Source of the DNA: Trueperaceae bacterium
Lineage (GTDB): Bacteria > Deinococcota > Deinococci > Deinococcales > Trueperaceae
Assembly: GCA_024636105.1 (NCBI GenBank)
Contig: JAGXHO010000160.1
Span: forward strand, 1 to 7,492
Length of the DNA: 7,492 nt
Direction of reading: 5' to 3'
Shown: piece after piece, positions 1 through 7,492 of the stretch
Position numbering within the stretch: position 1 is the first letter of the stretch
How the letters are laid out: every line of letters begins with the position of its first letter
Made by a program: the position numbers and the translations under genes
Notes under the pieces: generated by a model
What the model was told of the DNA's origin: nothing
The model's input: the letters and a program-made list of their open reading frames with translations, nothing else
Databases searched by the model: none

Positions 1-31
1 AGGGCTGTACCGACGCACCCCCGAGTCCGCC

Positions 32-41
32 TACGGTGATC
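32..41 (+). promoter_or_regulatory. Start signal of the DUF3179-tlpA-ccdA cassette (leaderless -10 box or extended Shine-Dalgarno)
   Basis: TACGGT at 32-37 fits the TANNNT -10 consensus and ends 7 bases before the ATG at 45, the spacing expected when transcription begins at or next to the start codon. Leaderless genes with this layout are well known in Deinococcus. The overlapping GGTGATC at 35-41 is also complementary to the 16S rRNA 3' end just beyond the core anti-Shine-Dalgarno. Either reading favours ATG 45 over the GTG at 36. No convincing -35 box is visible in the few bases available. Confidence 0.4.
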
Positions 42-44
42 TGC

Positions 45-1325
45 ATGGACACCCCTCGCTACGTTCTAACGACGCGAATTCGCACGATCGTGGGTTCGCT
101 CCTCTTATTGGCCACCACCCTCTTCGTCGGAAGCGCGGCGCACGCGGTATCGGAGACCGACCTGCAGGGCCTGAGGATCGACGCCAGCCACGCGCAGATC
201 CCGCTCGAAGCGATCCTGCGTGGGGGACCACCGCCCCAAGGCATCCCCGCGCTCGGCTTCCGCGGCCTCACGGGGGTCGCCGGATGGCTCGGCGACCTCG
301 AACCCGTCATCTTGATGCGCGTCGGGGGCGAGGCGCGCCTCTACCCGCTCCAGGCGCTCACCTGGCACGAGATCGCCAACGACACGCTCGCCGGCGTGCC
401 GATCGCGGTGACCTTCTGCCCGCTGTGCAACAGCGCGCTCGCCTTCGACCGCCGCGTCCCCGTGACCGCCGAGCAGCTCGCCTCGCTGCGGGCCCCGGGG
501 AACAGCACCGTGCGCGTGCTGGACACCCCGGCCGACCTCGCGGCCGCCTACGCGCGCCAGACCGGCCGGGAGGCCCCAGCCCAGGCGGTCGACGTCACCT
601 TCGGGGTCTCGGGGCTGCTCTACCACTCCAACCTGCTGATGTTCGACGACGCCACCTTCACGCTCTGGTCGCAGCTCACGGGCGAAGGGGGCGTGGGCGA
701 GCTCGCGGGCGAGACGCTGGTGCGCTACCCGGCCCAGATCGTCGGGTTCGCCGACGCGCGCGCCGCCGAACCCGAGGCACTGGTCCTGAGCCGCGACACC
801 GGCTTCAGCCGGGCGTACGGGAGCAACCCGTACGTGGGGTACGACGAGATCGGTTCGCCGGCGTTCCTGTTCCGCGGCTCCGCCGACGGCCGCCTCGACC
901 CCAAGGCGCGCGTGATCACGATCGACGGCGCCGAACCGGTCGCCTACCCGTTCGACCACCTCGCCGCCGAGCGCGTGGTGCACGACGACGTCGGCGGTGC
1001 GCCGTTGGTGTTGTTGTGGGACGCCGGCACCGCGACCGCGCTCGGCGCCGCCACGATCGCCAACGCCGCGGACGTCGGGGCGGTCGGGGTCTTCCGCCCG
1101 GTCGCCGACGGCCGCAGCCTGACCTTCACCGCGACCGCCGACGCCTTCGTCGACGCGGAGACCGGGAGCCAGTGGGACGTGACCGGCCGGGCGCGTTCGG
1201 GCCCGCTCGAAGGGCAGGTGCTCGAGGCCGTGGCCCACGACAACACCCTCTGGTTCGCCTGGGCGGCCTTCCGCCCCGAGACCGAGGTCCGGCGCCCGGC
1301 GGGCGCGGGGGGGGACCTGAGATGA
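45..1325 (+). CDS. Secreted DUF3179 domain-containing protein
   Basis: Encodes 426 residues from ATG 45. A GTG at 36 would add three residues, but the start signals favour the ATG. Residues 1-34 look like a Sec signal peptide: arginines at 5, 11 and 13, a hydrophobic run around 15-28, and likely cleavage after AHA at 32-34. The rest matches the DUF3179 family: WHEIAND near 107-113, TFCPLCNSALAFDR near 123-136, a YHSNLLMFDD...LWSQLTGE block at about 193-214, and a C-terminal HDNTLWFAWAAF block. The family's biochemical role is unknown to me. C125 and C128 are the only cysteines left after signal removal, so the CPLC pair could bind a metal or form a disulfide. The gene overlaps the downstream TlpA gene by 4 bases (ATGA) and sits in front of ccdA, suggesting the pair is a client of that thiol relay (inference). 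Family call is firm, role is not. Confidence 0.9.
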   Translation: MDTPRYVLTTRIRTIVGSLLLLATTLFVGSAAHAVSETDLQGLRIDASHAQIPLEAILRGGPPPQGIPALGFRGLTGVAGWLGDLEPVILMRVGGEARLYPLQALTWHEIANDTLAGVPIAVTFCPLCNSALAFDRRVPVTAEQLASLRAPGNSTVRVLDTPADLAAAYARQTGREAPAQAVDVTFGVSGLLYHSNLLMFDDATFTLWSQLTGEGGVGELAGETLVRYPAQIVGFADARAAEPEALVLSRDTGFSRAYGSNPYVGYDEIGSPAFLFRGSADGRLDPKARVITIDGAEPVAYPFDHLAAERVVHDDVGGAPLVLLWDAGTATALGAATIANAADVGAVGVFRPVADGRSLTFTATADAFVDAETGSQWDVTGRARSGPLEGQVLEAVAHDNTLWFAWAAFRPETEVRRPAGAGGDLR

Positions 1326-1858
1326 TCGCGCTCGCGCGCCTCCCACGCGCCGCCCTTCTCGTGATCCTCGCCACCCTCGCCGGCGCGGCCCTCGCCCAGC
1401 GCGTCGGGGCCCCGCTTCCCGACTTCGAACTGCGCGACCAGCGCGGCGTGCTCGTGCAACCGGACGACCTGCGCGGGCGGCCGCTGATCCTGAACGTGTG
1501 GGCCAGCTGGTGCCCGCCCTGCCGCGCCGAGCTGCCGCTGCTCGCCGGTGCGGCGGCCGACCTCGAGGACGCGGGGGTCGTGCTGCTGCTCTTGAACGCC
1601 GGTGAGGCGGCGGCCACCGCAAGCGAGTTCCTCGCTGCGGAAGGGTTGCCCCTGCGGACGCTGGTCGATCCCGACCGGCGCGAACCCGGGCTCGAACCGA
1701 CGCTTGAGGTGCTCCGGCGCCTCCGGGCGGGCGGACTGCCGACCACCTTCTTCATCGACGCCGACGGCGTCCTGCGCGGGACGTACGTCGGCGAGCTCGA
1801 CGCGTCGGTGCTGAGCACCATGCTCGCGAACACCCTGGGCGTGGACTGGTCGCCGTGA
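1322..1858 (+). CDS. TlpA-family periplasmic thiol-disulfide oxidoreductase
   Basis: Encodes 178 residues. The ATG at 1322 overlaps the DUF3179 stop as ATGA, implying translational coupling. Residues 1-25 form a signal peptide or N-terminal anchor (arginines at 6 and 9, then an Ala/Leu-rich stretch ending in ALA at 23-25). The thioredoxin fold follows: PLPDFELRDQRG at 31-42, the active site WASWCPPC at 60-67 with redox cysteines C64 and C67, and the cis-proline loop GGLPTTFFID at 137-146 with P140. These are the standard marks of the TlpA/ResA/CcmG group, which keep cysteines of outer-face proteins reduced using electrons from CcdA or DsbD. The next gene is a CcdA homologue overlapping by 4 bases, so the electron donor is encoded alongside. 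The client could be an apocytochrome c or the DUF3179 protein; no cytochrome gene is in the window. Confidence 0.93.
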   Translation: MIALARLPRAALLVILATLAGAALAQRVGAPLPDFELRDQRGVLVQPDDLRGRPLILNVWASWCPPCRAELPLLAGAAADLEDAGVVLLLLNAGEAAATASEFLAAEGLPLRTLVDPDRREPGLEPTLEVLRRLRAGGLPTTFFIDADGVLRGTYVGELDASVLSTMLANTLGVDWSP

Positions 1859-2589
1859 CCGCATCGCGGGCCCGGGCCCGCGCGACCGCCCACCGCGTCG
1901 CCCACGGCGCCGCCTTCATGCTCGGGATGTCGCTCGTGTTCGTGGCGCTGGGCTTCGGCGCCGGCCTGATCGGCGAGCTCTTCTTCGTCTACGACCGCGC
2001 GCTGCGGATCGTCGCGGGCGTGCTCCTCGTCGTCTTCGGCCTCGTCCTCGCCGGCGTGCTGCGCGTCCCGTTCCTGCAGCGCGAGGCGCGCGTGCGCGTG
2101 ACGCACCACCCGGGCGGGTACGCCGGGTCGGCGGTCATCGGGCTCGCCTTCGGCGTCGGCTGGACCCCCTGCGTCGGGCCGGTGCTGGCCGGGGTGCTGG
2201 CCCTCGCCAGCGCCGGCGGCGACGCGGGTCGCGGCGCCCTGCTGCTGGGCGCCTACGCGCTCGGCTTCGCGCTACCCTTCCTGGCGCTGGCCTGGCTGGC
2301 GCCGACCGCGTCGCTCGCGCGTCGCTCCGGCGACCGCGGCGAGCGGCTCGCGGGTTGGTTGCTCGTCGCCGTGGGGCTGCTGTTGCTCTCGGGCCAACTC
2401 GCCCGCATCGCGCCCTACCTCGCCTCGCTCGGGAGCATCGAGGGGGTGCTCGCCGGCGCCGCGCCGGGCCTGCTGGTCTCCGGCGCGGCGGGCGTGCTCT
2501 CGTTCCTGTCGCCCTGCGTGCTGCCGCTCGTGCCGACCTACCTGGCCTTCCTCACGGGCGTCACCGGGGCGGACGCGCGCACTGCCTGA
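1855..2589 (+). CDS. ccdA: CcdA-type membrane thiol-electron transporter, circularly permuted
   Basis: Encodes 244 residues from GTG 1855, which overlaps the tlpA stop as GTGA. It belongs to the CcdA/DsbD membrane-domain family, which passes electrons from cytoplasmic thioredoxin to outer-face thioredoxins through two intramembrane cysteines. Hydrophobic segments lie at about 19-39, 49-69, 89-118, 127-149, 165-186 and 205-233. The GWTPCVGP motif (C106) normally sits in segment 4. The FLSPCVLPLVP motif (C221), normally in segment 1 near the N-terminus, is here in the last segment. The protein therefore begins where ordinary CcdA begins segment 2 (HGAAFMLGMSLVFVALGFG) and ends with segment 1 plus a short tail. 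Both cysteines and their prolines are kept, and the arginine-rich N-terminus (R5, R7, R9, R14) suits a cytoplasmic start. With six segments, the two ends of the normal protein lie on the same side, so the permutation is topologically feasible. Expected partner: the adjacent TlpA. Permutation versus assembly artefact is untested. Confidence 0.88.
   Translation: MTASRARARATAHRVAHGAAFMLGMSLVFVALGFGAGLIGELFFVYDRALRIVAGVLLVVFGLVLAGVLRVPFLQREARVRVTHHPGGYAGSAVIGLAFGVGWTPCVGPVLAGVLALASAGGDAGRGALLLGAYALGFALPFLALAWLAPTASLARRSGDRGERLAGWLLVAVGLLLLSGQLARIAPYLASLGSIEGVLAGAAPGLLVSGAAGVLSFLSPCVLPLVPTYLAFLTGVTGADARTA
1865..1882. repeat. Perfect 18-base palindrome just inside ccdA
   Basis: CGCGGGCCCGGGCCCGCG equals its own reverse complement. 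It begins 7 bases after the ccdA GTG codon and encodes the Arg-Ala repeat of the permuted N-terminus. It could fold into a tight hairpin near the start codon or simply reflect Arg/Ala codons in GC-rich DNA. Confidence 0.6.
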
Positions 2590-2612
2590 CGAGGGCCGTC
2601 CGCCACGGTCAC
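2560..2612. terminator. Hairpin at the convergent ends of ccdA and the Rieske-GltS gene; candidate bidirectional terminator
   Basis: The arm at 2560-2575 pairs with 2597-2612 at 14 of 16 positions, including an uninterrupted inner 8-base stem GGCGGACG/CGTCCGCC, around a 21-base loop. The loop contains the ccdA stop (2587-2589) and the outer stem covers the stop of the opposing gene (2609-2611). Only 19 bases separate the two genes, so one structure could end both transcripts. There is no T-run on either side, so it is not a classical intrinsic terminator. Confidence 0.4.
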
Positions 2613-4228
2613 CGACGCACCCCGCCGTACGCCACCCCGGTGAGGTCGGCCATGCGCCGGTCGAAGGTGGTCAGGTCGCGCGGCTCGAACCCCGAGAGCG
2701 CGTCGTGGCCGCACGCTCGGGCCATCACCTGCATCAGAGCCACGCTCGCGCGCAGGTAGCGCGCCAGCCGCTCCGCCGAGGTCTGCACGTGCAGCCGCTG
2801 CACCAGGTGGTCTTGCTGGGTGGCGATCCCCACCGGGCAGTTGTTGGTGTGGCACGCGCGCATCCCGAGGCAGCCGATCGCCTGCAGCGCCGAGTTGGCG
2901 ATGGCGATGGCGTCGGCGCCGAGCGCGAGCGCCTTGACGAAGTCGGGGGCGGTGCGCAAGCCGCCGGTCGCGACGAGCGTCACGTGGTCGGCCCCGCGCG
3001 CGTCGAGGTGCTCGCGGGCGCGCGCCAGCGCCGGGATGGTCGGCACCGAGATGTGGTCGCGAAAGAGCGCCGGGGCCGCGCCGGTGCCGCCGCCGCGGCC
3101 GTCGAGGATCACGTAGTCGACGCCGACCTCGAGCGCGGCGTCGAGGTCCTCCTCGACGTGCTGCGCCGAGAGCTTGTAGCCGATGGGGATCCCGCCGGTC
3201 GCGGCGCGCACTTCCTCGGCGAAGGCGCGCACATCGGCCACGTCGTGCCAATCCGGGAAGCGCGACGGTGAGATCGCCGCCTCCCCCGGCCGCAAGCCGC
3301 GCACCTCCGCGATCCTGGTCGTCACCTTGCTGCCCGGAAGGTGGCCGCCGGTGCCCGTCTTGGCCCCCTGCCCCCCCTTGAAGTGGAAGGCCTGGCAGCG
3401 ACGCACCTTCTCGAGATCGAACCCGAACCGCCCGGACGCCAGCTCGTAGAAGTAGCGGCCGTTCTCGGCGCGCTCGTCCTCGAGCATGCCGCCCTCGCCG
3501 GAGCAGATGCCCGTGCCGGCGAGCTCGGCGCCGCGCGCCAAGGCGATCTTCGCGGGCTCGGACAGCGCGCCGAAGCTCATGTCCGAGACGAAGATCGGGA
3601 TCTCGAGGTGCAGCGGACGCGCAGCACGCGGCCCGATCGTCACGTCGGTGGCGACGGGTGCGTCGTCGAGCAGCGGCATCCGCCGCAGCCGCGCGGTCAC
3701 CACCTGCAGGTCGTCCCACGACGGCAGGCGATCGCGTGGGACGCCCATCGCGACCGTAGGACCGTGCGCTCCCGTGCGCTCCAGCCCCTCGCGCGCGAGG
3801 CGTTGGATGTCGCCGACGAACGGCTCCTCGGCGACGTGGTGGTCCGTGTCGGCGTACAGCCCCTGGTATGCGCCGCGGTCGAATGGCTGCGGGTGCTCGC
3901 GCTCCCAGGCAGCGACCTGCGCCTCGTCGACCCACACCTGGCCGTCGTCGACCCAGGCGTCGAAGCGCTCGAGCCGCTCGCGCGGGTCGTACGCGCTGAC
4001 GCCGGTCGCCAGCCGGAAGTCCCAACCGTGCAGCCCGCAGACCAGGTCGTCGCCGACCACGCGGCCGTCGGCGAGCAGCGCACCTCGGTGCAGGCAACGG
4101 CCGTAGAGGACCGAGGCCGCATCGTCGACGCGCACGACCACCAGGTCGACGTTCGCGACGAGCGCGTAGGCGGGGGCGCGGTCTTCGAGCTCGTCCCAGC
4201 GCGCGACGGCGACCGGTCGGCGGCTCAC
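2609..4228 (-). CDS. Rieske [2Fe-2S] domain fused to an FMN-binding glutamate synthase domain
   Basis: Encodes 539 residues from GTG 4228, which overlaps the folA stop as GTGA; the frame is open further upstream but only through folA. Residues 1-105 form a Rieske domain with C45-x-H47 and C64-x2-H67, separated by 16 residues as in canonical Rieske centres. Residues 200-539 match the central synthase domain of glutamate synthase: SDMSFGALS at 215-223, GTGICSGEGG at 238-247, KGGQGAKTGTGGHLPG at 284-299, DGRGGGTGAAP at 376-386, TGGLRT at 421-426, and the [3Fe-4S] cysteines C453, C459 and C464 in CLGMRACHTNNCPVGIATQ. The family reductively aminates 2-oxoglutarate to glutamate on FMN. There is no class II amidotransferase domain and no C-terminal GXGXG domain, so ammonia would have to come from elsewhere or the substrate may differ. 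The Rieske centre could feed electrons to the FMN/Fe-S core (inference). Fold call is firm, true substrate open. Confidence 0.9.
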   Translation of the reverse strand: MSRRPVAVARWDELEDRAPAYALVANVDLVVVRVDDAASVLYGRCLHRGALLADGRVVGDDLVCGLHGWDFRLATGVSAYDPRERLERFDAWVDDGQVWVDEAQVAAWEREHPQPFDRGAYQGLYADTDHHVAEEPFVGDIQRLAREGLERTGAHGPTVAMGVPRDRLPSWDDLQVVTARLRRMPLLDDAPVATDVTIGPRAARPLHLEIPIFVSDMSFGALSEPAKIALARGAELAGTGICSGEGGMLEDERAENGRYFYELASGRFGFDLEKVRRCQAFHFKGGQGAKTGTGGHLPGSKVTTRIAEVRGLRPGEAAISPSRFPDWHDVADVRAFAEEVRAATGGIPIGYKLSAQHVEEDLDAALEVGVDYVILDGRGGGTGAAPALFRDHISVPTIPALARAREHLDARGADHVTLVATGGLRTAPDFVKALALGADAIAIANSALQAIGCLGMRACHTNNCPVGIATQQDHLVQRLHVQTSAERLARYLRASVALMQVMARACGHDALSGFEPRDLTTFDRRMADLTGVAYGGVRR

Positions 4229-4707
4229 GGCCGCGCCTGCGCGATCCGCTCGTAGCGCCGGAACACGTAGCCTTCGCGCTCTTGCTCTTCGGCCAGCGCC
4301 CAGGCCGCCTCGTCCCACGCCGGGAACCAGGCATCGCCCTCGAACTCGCCGGGCACGATGGAGAGGTGCAGCTCGTCGGCGTACGGCAGCACCTGGGCGT
4401 AGATGCTCGCACCCCCGGCCACCCACACCGGGCGCCCACTGGCCTCAGCGGCGGCGAGCGCCGCCTCGACGTCGCCGGCCCGCTGGCTGCCGGCCGGGGC
4501 GTGTTCGCTGCGGGTCACGACGATCGCCTGGACGTCCTCCAGGTCCCCGCCGAAGATGGCGTAGCTGCGGCGCCCCATGACCACCGCCCCGCCTTCGACG
4601 CTCGTCACGAAGTGCTGGTAGTCCGCCGGGACGTCCCAGGGGAGGCCGTCTTTGTTACCGATCACGCGGTCGGCGGTCATCGCCGCGATCATGCGCACGC
4701 GGGCCAC
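4225..4707 (-). CDS. folA: Dihydrofolate reductase
   Basis: Encodes 160 residues, the usual bacterial length, and reduces dihydrofolate to tetrahydrofolate with NADPH in the cytoplasm. Visible marks are IAAMTADRVIG at 7-17, LPWDVPAD at 22-29 with W24 and D29 as the likely catalytic acid, the cofactor-binding VVMGRRSY at 42-49, and VWVAGGASIY at 94-103 containing the conserved Gly-Gly pair. I chose GTG 4707 because a G-rich run (GGGGGG, 4714-4719) sits 6 bases upstream and the preceding gene stops one base earlier. ATG 4692 would still leave the core intact (MIAAMTADRVIG). The stop overlaps the start of the Rieske-GltS gene by 4 bases, so the two are probably co-translated. No thymidylate synthase gene is in the window. 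Confidence 0.93.
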   Translation of the reverse strand: MARVRMIAAMTADRVIGNKDGLPWDVPADYQHFVTSVEGGAVVMGRRSYAIFGGDLEDVQAIVVTRSEHAPAGSQRAGDVEAALAAAEASGRPVWVAGGASIYAQVLPYADELHLSIVPGEFEGDAWFPAWDEAAWALAEEQEREGYVFRRYERIAQARP

Positions 4708-4708
4708 G

Positions 4709-5086
4709 TCACGCCCCCCGTACGTCGAGGTACGGCGCCGGCACCCAACCCGACTGAGGCCCGTTCGGGCCGTGCCAGCGGACGAAGTAGAAGTCGAGCT
4801 CGGGGTTGTCCTGGAACAGGACGACGTCGACCACCGACCCTGCGGGCACGTGGCCGGTCACCTCGGTGCGCAGGTGCGAGTCGACGAGGTGGACGAGCTC
4901 CTCCTGCACGACGCCCTCGAAGGTCGCGTGCAGGACCCCCGTGAAGCCGTCGCCCATCCGCACCGGGATGCCGCACAGGTCGGGGTCTGGGTTCGTGGCG
5001 AACGGCAGCGGGGGCACCACGCCGTGGGCGGTGGCGGTGCCGAGGCACGCCGCGATCGCGAGGGCACGGATCCATTTTCGTCGCAT
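4709..5086 (-). CDS. Small secreted protein with a C-terminal SH3-like domain
   Basis: Encodes 125 residues from ATG 5086. The N-terminus has a basic start (RRK at 2-4) and a short hydrophobic run, with probable signal peptidase I cleavage after ATA at 18-20. IAAC at 11-14 also resembles a lipobox, although the hydrophobic stretch before C14 is short for a lipoprotein. Residues 81-122 look like a bacterial SH3-type beta barrel: PAGSVVDVVLFQDN, then FYFVRWHG, then the closing SGWVPAPYLDV. Such domains commonly bind cell-wall peptides or act as envelope spacers. Residues 38-78 match nothing I recognise. It stops one base before folA begins and leads the - strand trio, but no functional link to folate or glutamate metabolism is evident. 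The SH3 assignment rests on pattern only. Confidence 0.7.
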   Translation of the reverse strand: MRRKWIRALAIAACLGTATAHGVVPPLPFATNPDPDLCGIPVRMGDGFTGVLHATFEGVVQEELVHLVDSHLRTEVTGHVPAGSVVDVVLFQDNPELDFYFVRWHGPNGPQSGWVPAPYLDVRGA

Positions 5087-5092
5087 GGGTCG

Positions 5093-5105
5093 ACCCTAGC
5101 CTCCC
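5093..5105 (-). promoter_or_regulatory. Start signals of the SH3-folA-GltS cassette
   Basis: On the - strand, TAGGGT (5093-5098) fits TANNNT and lies exactly 6 bases before the ATG at 5086, as expected for a leaderless -10 box. A GGGAGG at 5100-5105 could be a Shine-Dalgarno sequence, but its 13-base spacing is long. No -35 box is seen 16-18 bases further upstream. Confidence 0.35.
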
Positions 5106-5120
5106 GCGTGCCGGTCGCGC

Positions 5121-5160
5121 CGTCGGGCGGTTGACACCCACGCCGCGCCGCCGACCGACG
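5121..5160 (-). terminator. Weak hairpin downstream of the PIN toxin gene
   Basis: CGTCGGGCGG (5121-5130) can pair with CCGCC (5148-5152) and CGACG (5156-5160), giving ten pairs with a three-base bulge and a 17-base loop. It starts 8 bases after the toxin stop codon in the direction of transcription, where a terminator would be expected. It has no T-run, and chance pairing is easy in such GC-rich DNA. Confidence 0.22.
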
Positions 5161-5167
5161 CTCGCCA

Positions 5168-5563
5168 TCAGACCCGCACGACCTCGACCAGCGGTGCGCC
5201 CGCGAAGTCGTCGTCCTGCGCAACCACGGGCACGCCGAGCGCGAACGCGGTCGGCGCGATCCAGGCGTCGTTGACCTCCATCGAACGCCCGAGGTCGCGG
5301 AGCGCGACGCGCAGGACGGCCCAGGCGTCGGCGACCGCCGCGTCGATCGGCACGAGGTCTAGGCCGAGCACGTACTCGAGGGTGGCGAGGCGGAGAGCGG
5401 GCGTCGCCAGGTCGCGCGCACCGAGGACCCCGGCGCGGAGCTCTGCGAGGGTCACCACCGACACCGCCAGCTGCTCGGGCGCGGCGGTCTCCGTGACCGG
5501 TCGCCCGGTCTCGAGGGCGATGAAGAGCGACGTGTCGGCGAGGCCCCGGGGCGCGGCCACCAC
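5168..5563 (-). CDS. vapC: PIN-domain ribonuclease toxin, VapC-like
   Basis: Encodes 131 residues, typical for VapC. The four acidic residues of the PIN metal site are visible: D10 in LADTSLF, E41 in TLAELRAG, D99 in VNDAWIA and D117 in AQDDDF. PIN toxins of this type cut RNA, often tRNA or rRNA, when not held by the antitoxin. The start is GTG 5563, two bases after the antitoxin stop, with a second GTG at 5560 as an alternative. Neither has a clear Shine-Dalgarno, so translation probably depends on coupling to the antitoxin gene. The open frame continues upstream inside the antitoxin gene, but that stretch is an Arg/Pro/Ala-rich shadow. The full acidic set implies an intact enzyme. The RNA target cannot be read from sequence. 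Confidence 0.85.
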   Translation of the reverse strand: MVAAPRGLADTSLFIALETGRPVTETAAPEQLAVSVVTLAELRAGVLGARDLATPALRLATLEYVLGLDLVPIDAAVADAWAVLRVALRDLGRSMEVNDAWIAPTAFALGVPVVAQDDDFAGAPLVEVVRV

Positions 5564-5565
5564 GT

Positions 5566-5820
5566 TCAGAGCGGACCGAGGTCGTCGGTGCTGTCGGGCG
5601 CGAGCTCGTCGCGGTCGGCGCGCAGACCCGCGTCGGCCTGCACCCGCCGGAGGTCGGCGAGGAACACCCCTCGCGGCACCCACCGGGGCTTGCGGGACAC
5701 CTGCGTCACGCGCGCGACCTCGCGACCGTCGACGGTGATGAACACGTCCTCGCCGGCCTCGACGCGCTCGAGCACCTGCCGGGTTCGGTTGCGCAGTTCA
5801 CGGGAGGCCACGGTGCGCAT
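5566..5820 (-). CDS. Phd/YefM-family antitoxin
   Basis: Encodes 84 residues from ATG 5820. The open frame reaches 5862, but MRTVASRELRNRTRQVLERVEAGEDV... begins exactly where Phd/YefM proteins begin, so the 14 residues before it are excluded. The N-terminal half follows the family pattern: S/T-x-x-E-L-R-N at 6-11, a helix ending in VEAGEDV at 19-25, then FITVDGREVARV at 27-38, which would form the DNA-binding and dimer fold. The C-terminal half (about 45-84) is charged and ends in an acidic tail, as expected of the flexible segment that wraps and blocks the toxin. It lies two bases upstream of the PIN toxin gene. A near-palindrome over its start codon is a likely self-operator. Confidence 0.85.
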   Translation of the reverse strand: MRTVASRELRNRTRQVLERVEAGEDVFITVDGREVARVTQVSRKPRWVPRGVFLADLRRVQADAGLRADRDELAPDSTDDLGPL

Positions 5821-5856
5821 GCGACGATCGTTGCACACGTGCGACGCTCGTCGCAT
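5819..5856. promoter_or_regulatory. 38-base near-palindrome at the antitoxin start; candidate autoregulatory operator
   Basis: The outer nine bases are perfect inverted repeats (ATGCGACGA at 5819-5827, TCGTCGCAT at 5848-5856). Across the whole 38 bases, 16 of 19 position pairs are complementary. The element overlaps the antitoxin start codon (5818-5820) and fills most of the 45-base gap to the aldehyde dehydrogenase stop. Phd/YefM antitoxins typically repress their own operons by binding palindromes in this position, which is the basis for the call. A hairpin ending the upstream transcript is the alternative. Confidence 0.55.
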
Positions 5857-5865
5857 CGCCACGGG

Positions 5866-7492
5866 TCACGCCCCGTACGGCACCCACACGCTCTTGTGCT
5901 GCACCGCGCGCCGCAGGAAGGCGCGCCCCTCGGCCTGCGCCGGGTCGTACCAGTCGCGCTTGCGACCAAAGTTCACCCAGGTGGCCTTGAGGTTGCCGGC
6001 GCTGCGGCGCTCCACCTCGGCGCTGCCGGCGGCGCTGCCCACGTACCAGTGGACCGCCACCTCCTCGTGGTCGGCGAGCGTCTTGGCGAGCGCGTCGCGG
6101 TCGCCGGTGACCACGTTCAGCGCCCCGCCCGGGACGTCGGAGGCCTCGACCACGTGCACCAGGTCGAGCGCCGCGAGCGGCGACCGCGGCGACGGGGTCG
6201 CGACGACCCGGTTGCCCATCGCCAGCAGCGGCGCCGCCAACGACACGAACGCCAGCAGCGGCGCCTCGTCGGGGCAGCTCACGGCGGCGACGCCCCAGGG
6301 CTCGTGCATCCCGAGCACCACGCCGCGCACGGGCACGCCCTTGACCGCGCCGTCCCACTTGTCGGCCCAGGCAGCGTAGGTGAAGAGCCGCCGTACGGAC
6401 ACGTCCACCTCGCGCTGCGCTGCCGCTTCGTCCGCGCCGGTGAGGCCGCGCAGGCGGTCGACGAAGCGCGTCGCGTCGGCCTCGAGGTTCTCGGCCAGGT
6501 AGTAGAGCACCTGCGCGCGCGCGTGGCCCGACGTCTTGGACCACGCGGTCGCCTTGCGCGCGGCCTCGACGGCGTCGCGCACGTCCTTGCGGTTGCCCCA
6601 ACCGGCTTCGCCGAGGTGCTGCCCCTCGACGCCCCGCACCGGGTAGCTGGTACCGCCGTCGGGGCGCACCTGCTTGCCGCCGACGTAGAGCTTGGGGGTC
6701 CGGTCGAGCCCGCCGCCCGTGGCCGGGTCGTCGCCCAGCTCGGCGGGGCCGGGAGGCGGCACCAGGTCACCCTCGGCGTAGGCGGGGAGCGCGCGGTCGA
6801 TTGGATCGACCAGGTACGCCGCCATGCCCTCGCGGCCCCCTTCGCGACCGAAGCCCGACTCCTTGTAGCCCCCGAAGCCGGCGGCGGCGTCGAACAAGTT
6901 GGTGGCGTTCACCCACACCACGCCGGCCTGCAGCGCCGGCGCGACGTCGAGCGCGGTGGCGACGCTCTCGGTCCAGACGCTCGCGGCGAGCCCGTACGGG
7001 GTGTGGTTGGCGATCTCGACCGCCTCGGCGGGCGTGCGGAAGGTCATCGCGACCAGCACCGGGCCGAAGATCTCCTCGCGGGCGATGGTCATCGCCGGTT
7101 CGACCTCGGTGAAGAGCGTCGGTGGGTAGTACAGGCCTCCGTCGGGAACGTCCCAGGAGGGCTGATGGCAGGTCGCGCCCTCGGCGATCCCCTGCGCCAC
7201 CAGGCGCTTCACCCGCTCGAGCTGCACAGGCGCCACCAGCGCGCCGACGTCGACGGCCTTGTCGAGCGGCGAACCGACCCGCAGCGTCTCCATCCGCGCG
7301 CGCAGCTTGCGAACGAAGGCCTCGGCGATGGGCTCGTGCAACAGCAGCCGCGAGCCGGCGCAACAGACCTGGCCTTGGTTGAGCCAGATGGCGTCGACGA
7401 CGCCCTCGACCGCGCCATCGAGATCGGCGTCGTCGAACACGAGGAAGGGGCTCTTGCCGCCCAGCTCCAGCGTCAGCGCCTTGCCGCTGCCG
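5866..7492 (-). CDS. ALDH16-like aldehyde dehydrogenase with a second, inactive ALDH domain (5' end beyond the window)
   Basis: About 541 residues are visible; the N-terminal part lies past the right edge. The reading frame enters at 7491 with GSGKALTLELGGKSPF, so the apparent start at 7440 is internal. The first domain keeps its catalytic set: the general-base glutamate in LELGGKSP, the nucleophile cysteine in NQGQVCCAGSR (first Cys, codon 7363-7365), and EEIFGPV; it closes with GGYKESGFGREGG. A Pro/Gly-rich linker (about 6700-6770) leads to a second ALDH-like domain starting KLYVGGKQV. That domain resembles the NAD-binding half (ALNVVTGDRDAL, HWYVGSAAGS), but where LELGGK should be it reads WVNFGRKRDW, and it ends at VPYGA with no catalytic cysteine region. 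This is the ALDH16 architecture, in which the second domain is structural. Restoring a usual ALDH N-terminus (about 240 residues) gives roughly 780, the size of bacterial ALDH16. It should oxidise an aldehyde with NAD(P)+; the substrate is unknown. Confidence 0.9.
   Translation of the reverse strand, partial: GSGKALTLELGGKSPFLVFDDADLDGAVEGVVDAIWLNQGQVCCAGSRLLLHEPIAEAFVRKLRARMETLRVGSPLDKAVDVGALVAPVQLERVKRLVAQGIAEGATCHQPSWDVPDGGLYYPPTLFTEVEPAMTIAREEIFGPVLVAMTFRTPAEAVEIANHTPYGLAASVWTESVATALDVAPALQAGVVWVNATNLFDAAAGFGGYKESGFGREGGREGMAAYLVDPIDRALPAYAEGDLVPPPGPAELGDDPATGGGLDRTPKLYVGGKQVRPDGGTSYPVRGVEGQHLGEAGWGNRKDVRDAVEAARKATAWSKTSGHARAQVLYYLAENLEADATRFVDRLRGLTGADEAAAQREVDVSVRRLFTYAAWADKWDGAVKGVPVRGVVLGMHEPWGVAAVSCPDEAPLLAFVSLAAPLLAMGNRVVATPSPRSPLAALDLVHVVEASDVPGGALNVVTGDRDALAKTLADHEEVAVHWYVGSAAGSAEVERRSAGNLKATWVNFGRKRDWYDPAQAEGRAFLRRAVQHKSVWVPYGA

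Follow-up and report, generated by a model that had tools for sequence, protein, structure and literature searches.

Natural circular permutation is well known among soluble proteins. Among helical membrane proteins, VKOR and DsbB, four-helix bundles that bind a quinone, are the sole printed case that we found in the open-licence literature, and that case is a remote inference. These membrane thiol redox families were proposed to be circular permutants in a study whose available text calls this the first report of permutation relating alpha-helical membrane proteins (PMC4555120). Canonical CcdA, another membrane thiol redox protein, is built of two inverted repeats with six helices in all, and TM1 and TM4 have been proposed to act as an elevator inside an O-shaped scaffold, according to the available part of PMC7329351. 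In Deinococcus, two-gene ccdA-ccmG(dsbE) clusters have been described, and the CcdA encoded there was aligned with B. subtilis CcdA (PMC8945050, available text).

Here we analyze a gene in a 7,492-nucleotide window, the whole stretch of DNA studied, from a Trueperaceae bacterium of the Deinococcota (assembly GCA_024636105.1, contig JAGXHO010000160.1, positions 1 to 7,492 of the forward strand). We assign a probability of about 0.86 to the reading that the product of this gene is a genuine circularly permuted CcdA under selection, most likely a CcdA-like relay that came from an in-frame tandem duplication and had at least two origins. From the observed helix order, conservation, gene context and tree placement, we infer the topology, the flow of electrons and the duplication route that this reading contains.

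Helix order and gene context of the permuted CcdA

The gene (1855..2589, + strand) encodes 244 residues and begins with a GTG that overlaps the tlpA stop codon (GTGA). Its product matched PF02683 at 55.6 bits, against a curated cut-off of 27.1, and this Pfam profile (DsbD_TM) matched it in two stretches, the best of which placed residues 10-177 on profile positions 40-214. When aligned with T. thermophilus CcdA (PDB 5vkv; 37% identity over 171 alignment columns), query residues 18-185 corresponded to chain residues 43-206 and query residues 208-239 to chain residues 7-38. An HMM built from 77 canonical CcdA proteins likewise matched the protein as given in two swapped domains, with hmm positions 47-235 at residues 8-192 (202.9 bits) and hmm positions 6-44 at residues 203-241 (48.9 bits), so that TM2-6 come first and TM1 follows. 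All three comparisons confirmed the segment order 2-3-4-5-6-1 that the original prediction had proposed, and its cut at residue 205 lies close to the start of the TM1 match at residue 203. Because the protein runs from TM2-6 into TM1 and not in the canonical linear order of TM1 to TM6, it is a permuted derivative rather than a standard CcdA.

When TM1 was moved to the front of the protein, the two swapped domains became one continuous HMM domain (hmm positions 6-235, 258.5 bits), and the total score rose from 246.0 to 258.9 bits. Six other permuted proteins responded to rotation like the window protein, and four canonical control proteins showed the opposite response. Both redox cysteines were retained together with their prolines, as had been claimed: C106 in the WTPCVG motif of TM4 (2161..2178, + strand) and C221 in the SPCVLPLVP motif of the relocated TM1 (2464..2562, + strand).

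The new N-terminal tail (1855..1902, + strand) is arginine-rich; its counterpart in canonical CcdA is the latter half of the TM1-TM2 loop. Its proposed agreement with the positive-inside rule stood in one set of relatives but not in the other when charges were computed at fixed offsets from the motifs. In the 132 proteins of the Deinococcota-search set, mean net charge was +1.78 for the N-terminal tail and -1.34 for the TM6-TM1 linker, whereas in the 120 proteins of the Chloroflexota-search set the values were +0.41 and +0.38, and the charge contrast was absent. The linker has a mean length of about 21-25 residues. Two AlphaFold2 models were of middling confidence (pTM 0.69 and 0.71). Their best Foldseek match was CcdA 5vkv (prob 1.00), with weak E-values (0.04 and 0.10) and a TM-score of only 0.49; VIA gave 5vkv a Z of 5.4, no higher than for unrelated chains, and its alignment spanned model residues 10-202 only.

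The permuted ccdA closes a run of three + strand genes, DUF3179-tlpA-permuted ccdA, joined by an ATGA overlap between DUF3179 and tlpA and a GTGA overlap between tlpA and ccdA, which suggest coupled translation. The tlpA-like gene (1322..1858, + strand; Pfam AhpC-TSA, Redoxin and Thioredoxin) encodes a periplasmic thioredoxin with a WCPPC motif, the presumed electron acceptor. The DUF3179 gene (45..1325, + strand, with its start picked by eye in an ORF listing that begins at 36; PF11376, 288.5 bits) carries a CPLC motif at 417-428, and its product is the presumed downstream redox substrate. A table in the available text of PMC9312934 lists DUF3179 among selenoprotein families, its motif being UxxC/T, and such variants make CPLC a plausible redox site. 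The DUF3179 protein may be a redox protein of the periplasm that receives electrons from TlpA, and gene context suggests that it is perhaps tied to the permuted CcdA.

Inspection of the rest of the window by eye showed a Rieske and FMN glutamate-synthase-like fusion (about 2609-4707, - strand) that is convergent with the permuted ccdA, a DHFR-like gene adjoining this fusion, and a PIN-type toxin and antitoxin-like pair (5168-5862, - strand).

Distribution of the permuted form

Relatives were collected in three database searches and assigned to the permuted or canonical class from the two cysteine motifs. The search with the window protein gave 41 permuted proteins among the 120 best matches listed. 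Once a second search had been run with TM5-TM6-TM1 of P0039 as the query, the count was 132 among 212 listed, and a third search with Chloroflexota protein queries returned 120 permuted proteins in 120 listed matches. Over the three lists, which hold best matches only, 252 of the 332 listed matches were permuted, 77 were canonical and three (P0051, P0114 and P0131) were unclassed by the two-motif rule. The original prediction had named a lack of homologues with this order as evidence against it, and these proteins answer that objection. Exactly two cysteines, the redox pair, are present in 245 of the 252 permuted proteins, and three in the other 7; the tail after TM1 is no longer than 25 residues in all 245 permuted proteins of at least 230 residues. 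The cysteines of the TM1 and TM4 motifs were invariant in 124 aligned rows chosen by these same motifs, so that their conservation within each class is partly by construction. Database names of relatives, such as 'cytochrome c-type biogenesis protein' or 'CcdA', leave the altered order unmentioned.

Within the family of G001 (Trueperaceae), a full-length permuted match was found in 20 of 39 genomes. Across the Deinococcota the count was 21 of 111, the carrier beyond this family being G048, where the gene lies on a contig of 2,269,167 bp. Seventeen of the 21 carriers also have a canonical copy (E <= 1e-30, judged by match span), and no canonical match was seen at this threshold in carriers G002, G005, G010 and G028; G037 had the canonical form, and the permuted form was not seen there. 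A tlpA gene lies directly upstream of the permuted ccdA in 18 of the 21 carrier genomes and was not found beside it in G010, G026 and G028, so that the genetic link to a TlpA/ResA-type thioredoxin extends from the window to most carriers. The suggested look for homologues next to tlpA and DUF3179 genes gave the full run mostly close to the window: DUF3179 precedes tlpA in 10 of the 11 nearest genomes, the contig ending first in the eleventh (G004), and the three-gene order recurs in G048 (locus L150), but similarity revealed no DUF3179 gene at the loci of nine more distant Deinococcota carriers (L108-L116).

In G018, two near-identical copies of tlpA and permuted ccdA lie at 1,927,042 and 3,263,353 (L151 and L152) of one 4.29 Mb contig, C1. 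They are on opposite strands and have one more ORF on the ccdA side in common, while their remaining surroundings differ, as if the pair had been recently duplicated.

The permuted form reaches further than the original prediction stated, which foresaw neither the Chloroflexota forms nor a likely recurrence. In the phylum of G113 (Chloroflexota), 12 of 350 genomes matched at E <= 1e-52, at least 11 with a full-length permuted protein and one with a canonical protein; since at most seven candidates per genome were scored in the results shown, 11 of 350 is a lower bound. In the order of G471, also Chloroflexota, full-length permuted matches were found in 13 of 121 genomes, at 17 places. The Chloroflexota permuted proteins form two sequence groups, A and B. 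Group A accounts for five of the at least 11 permuted genomes from the 350-genome search. A Cytochrom_C_asm gene adjoins it in L251 and, by eye, in L256; in L250 and L259 it lies, by eye, downstream of ribosomal protein genes. Group B is found near DsbA-like, rhodanese and TlpA-like genes. Seven group B loci (L246-L249, L254, L255 and L258) are redox/metal clusters with DsbA-like and rhodanese genes (Pfam for L247), and a P-type ATPase-like ORF with a YHS-like start was seen by eye in L248, L255 and L258.

Beyond these two phyla, a permuted copy was found in one of 184 genomes of the phylum of G115 (G1467, locus L271), and no thioredoxin-like neighbor was seen beside it. At a strict E <= 1e-52, a threshold that diverged forms could escape, no full-length permuted match was found in 348 genomes of the G114 phylum or in 346 genomes of the G119 phylum, the latter searched with no positive control. 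None was seen in 185 genomes of the G117 phylum, where 60 genomes matched; all 60 were judged by match span, and eight by sequence as well. In the results shown, up to seven candidates per genome were scored for the G114 phylum and up to 14 for the G117 and G115 phyla; the absences in the G114, G119 and G117 phyla are weak because not all first-look candidates were scored.

We found that in the Chloroflexota genome G783 the permuted gene occupies a place held elsewhere by canonical ccdA. Its locus reads YkuD L,D-transpeptidase, permuted ccdA, TlpA, DUF2085 and Cu-oxidase_4 (Pfam), and G116 has the same gene order around a canonical ccdA (YkuD and the TlpA-like gene by Pfam, DUF2085 and Cu-oxidase_4 by similarity to the G783 genes). 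In G471, G484 and G578, canonical ccdA follows a related transpeptidase and precedes DUF2085 and Cu-oxidase_4 relatives, without that TlpA gene. No further ccdA was found in G783 at E <= 1e-40 among 22 scored of 33 candidates. Because the permuted gene of G783 fills the canonical slot, this locus offers the strongest non-experimental argument that the permuted protein takes the role of canonical CcdA.

Some canonical-type matches lie in frames of about 298-317 aa (L193 on C139 of G116, and several genomes of the G471 order) and may carry extra C-terminal segments. A possible 1-2-3-4-5-6-1 intermediate in G116 (match 8-232) proved canonical, extended at its C-terminus by unrelated sequence; the extension in L193 has hydrophobic segments and is not a TM1 copy.

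Number of origins and rival explanations

In a first tree, whose permuted proteins were the Deinococcota set only, these formed one clade. A more careful tree was built from 89 proteins, some rotated and some canonical; the careful trees excluded six canonical rows with long branches or odd composition (L017, L024, L205, L144, L200 and L013), and L147 was dropped since it failed the motif pattern. Here the permuted rows fell in three places, the Deinococcota (D), A and B. Its starred branches require three changes, and not one of 200 bootstrap trees can be explained by a single change. A single clade of all permuted proteins, a group defined by sequence beforehand, was rejected (AU p = 0.0035), and it was also rejected on TM2-6 alone, without rotation (AU p 0.0029). 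For groups A, B and D, which were named after tree inspection, B and D as one clade was rejected (p 0.0036), and single clades of A with B and of A with D were not (p 0.13 and 0.15). Group B stands with canonical Chloroflexota proteins (97/95). The Deinococcota permuted group stands with canonical proteins of G041, G042 and Bacillota, not with the canonical copies of the Trueperaceae themselves; in G041 and G042, the canonical ccdA also follows tlpA. Adding L271 raised the count of changes to four, three of them forced by starred branches, its own placement being weak (74/59) and from a single genome.

Because the TM2-6 tree rejects one permuted clade, the permutation probably arose at least twice, a number we prefer since three changes could equal two gains and one reversion. 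More tentatively, at slightly under even odds in our judgment, CcdA may have been permuted in the same loop at least three or four times (in the Deinococcota, in one or two Chloroflexota groups and in the third-phylum member), always freeing the cytoplasmic end of TM1. If true, three or four origins would make this a natural circular permutation that recurs in a polytopic helical membrane protein and can be tested directly. They would also suggest that TM1 is a module separable from the scaffold, to which a covalent tie is not needed or even hinders.

That the order reflects an assembly artefact or collapsed tandem ccdA copies, as the original prediction itself had considered, is barely conceivable. 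Many carriers are metagenome bins, which speaks for such an error, yet the 252 listed proteins share one order, with a short C-terminal tail in those of at least 230 residues, and they come from different assemblies, some on contigs of 4.1-4.4 Mb (G018, 4,285,982 bp; G471, 4,403,799 bp; G578, 4,127,769 bp). The start of the permuted ccdA overlaps the tlpA stop cleanly, and among the loci examined two ccdA-like ORFs occurred together only at L018 and L032, both canonical. Very unlikely, too, is a decaying paralogue without function: the canonical copies in 17 of the 21 Deinococcota carriers are what it would lead one to expect, whereas the dN/dS of the window gene against six relatives is 0.10-0.34, the motifs are conserved, and G783 keeps, among its scored candidates, only the permuted copy. 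Misassembly, decay and chance were all tested and all rejected, and the reading as a functional permutation is supported.

We consider it improbable that a single permutation spread between phyla and that later recombination with resident canonical ccdA blurred the trees. The rejection of an all-permuted clade with and without rotation, the rejection of B with D, and the separate canonical neighbors of group B and of the Deinococcota group all argue against such a history. Its support lies in a cut site that is identical everywhere, in the unrejected clades of A with D and A with B, and in linkers that look similar by eye in the Deinococcota set, Chloroflexota group A and L271, with a short LE-containing stretch; this likeness is weak evidence for one origin because joined canonical C- and N-termini could look much alike. 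Another quite unlikely case is that of a functional protein whose TM1 has left its old place for a domain-swapped dimer pairing or a new arrangement. A TM6-TM1 linker of such modest length would suit it, and the model alignment to 5vkv covers only residues ahead of TM1. However, the TM1 and TM4 motifs were recognized in all but 3 of the 332 listed matches and mostly contain the only cysteines, and in canonical CcdA the redox disulfide forms within a cysteine pair, the moving helices being TM1 and TM4 (PMC7329351, available text).

Proposed function and comparison with known systems

In the preferred reading, a permuted CcdA with TM1 in its old place, all six helices would keep their usual orientation while the chain runs from TM2 to TM1. 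With TM2 first and TM1 last, both termini would be cytoplasmic, and the former termini would be connected by the periplasmic TM6-TM1 linker. Cytosolic thioredoxin would reduce the C106-C221 pair, the TM1/TM4 pair would expose the reduced cysteines to the periplasm, and the neighboring TlpA would be reduced and hand electrons on, here perhaps to the DUF3179 protein. Family knowledge and gene context make this flow, from thioredoxin through C106/C221 to TlpA, the most likely one. With its cytoplasmic end free, the mobile redox helix TM1 would be tethered on the periplasmic side only. Such a gene most likely came from an in-frame tandem duplication of ccdA, followed by loss of the first TM1 and of the second TM2-6, and the permutation would have one origin on the Deinococcota side and one or more in the Chloroflexota. 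No ORF with TM1 motifs on both sides, the intermediate form, was found in the loci examined.

Because permuted and ordinary CcdA align by sequence, share cells and seem recurrent, they make tests of helix order possible. These proteins would allow testing of the limits that helix order sets on insertion into the membrane and on folding, of whether a single helix can go in last, and of whether TM1 must be tied on both sides in the elevator motion proposed for CcdA.

No description of a permuted CcdA or DsbD was found in the open-licence literature; since the search covered open-licence papers only, novelty is likely, not proven. The Deinococcus ccdA-ccmG(dsbE) clusters, from the same phylum, resemble the window in that a TlpA-like gene adjoins ccdA, and the available text on that CcdA leaves permutation unmentioned (PMC8945050). 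With the CcdA/DsbD transmembrane family (PF02683; 5vkv), the window protein shares six helices, the SPCxLPLxP and TPCxGP motifs, two redox cysteines and a TlpA partner. It differs from canonical CcdA in its order 2-3-4-5-6-1, in having both ends predicted to be cytoplasmic, and in having the TM1-TM2 loop cut and the free ends joined. VKOR and DsbB are very distant families in which a helix pair was moved (ABCD to CDAB; PMC4555120, available text). Unlike them, CcdA has had one helix moved, its homology is plain from sequence, both forms occur in one genome, and recurrence is indicated.
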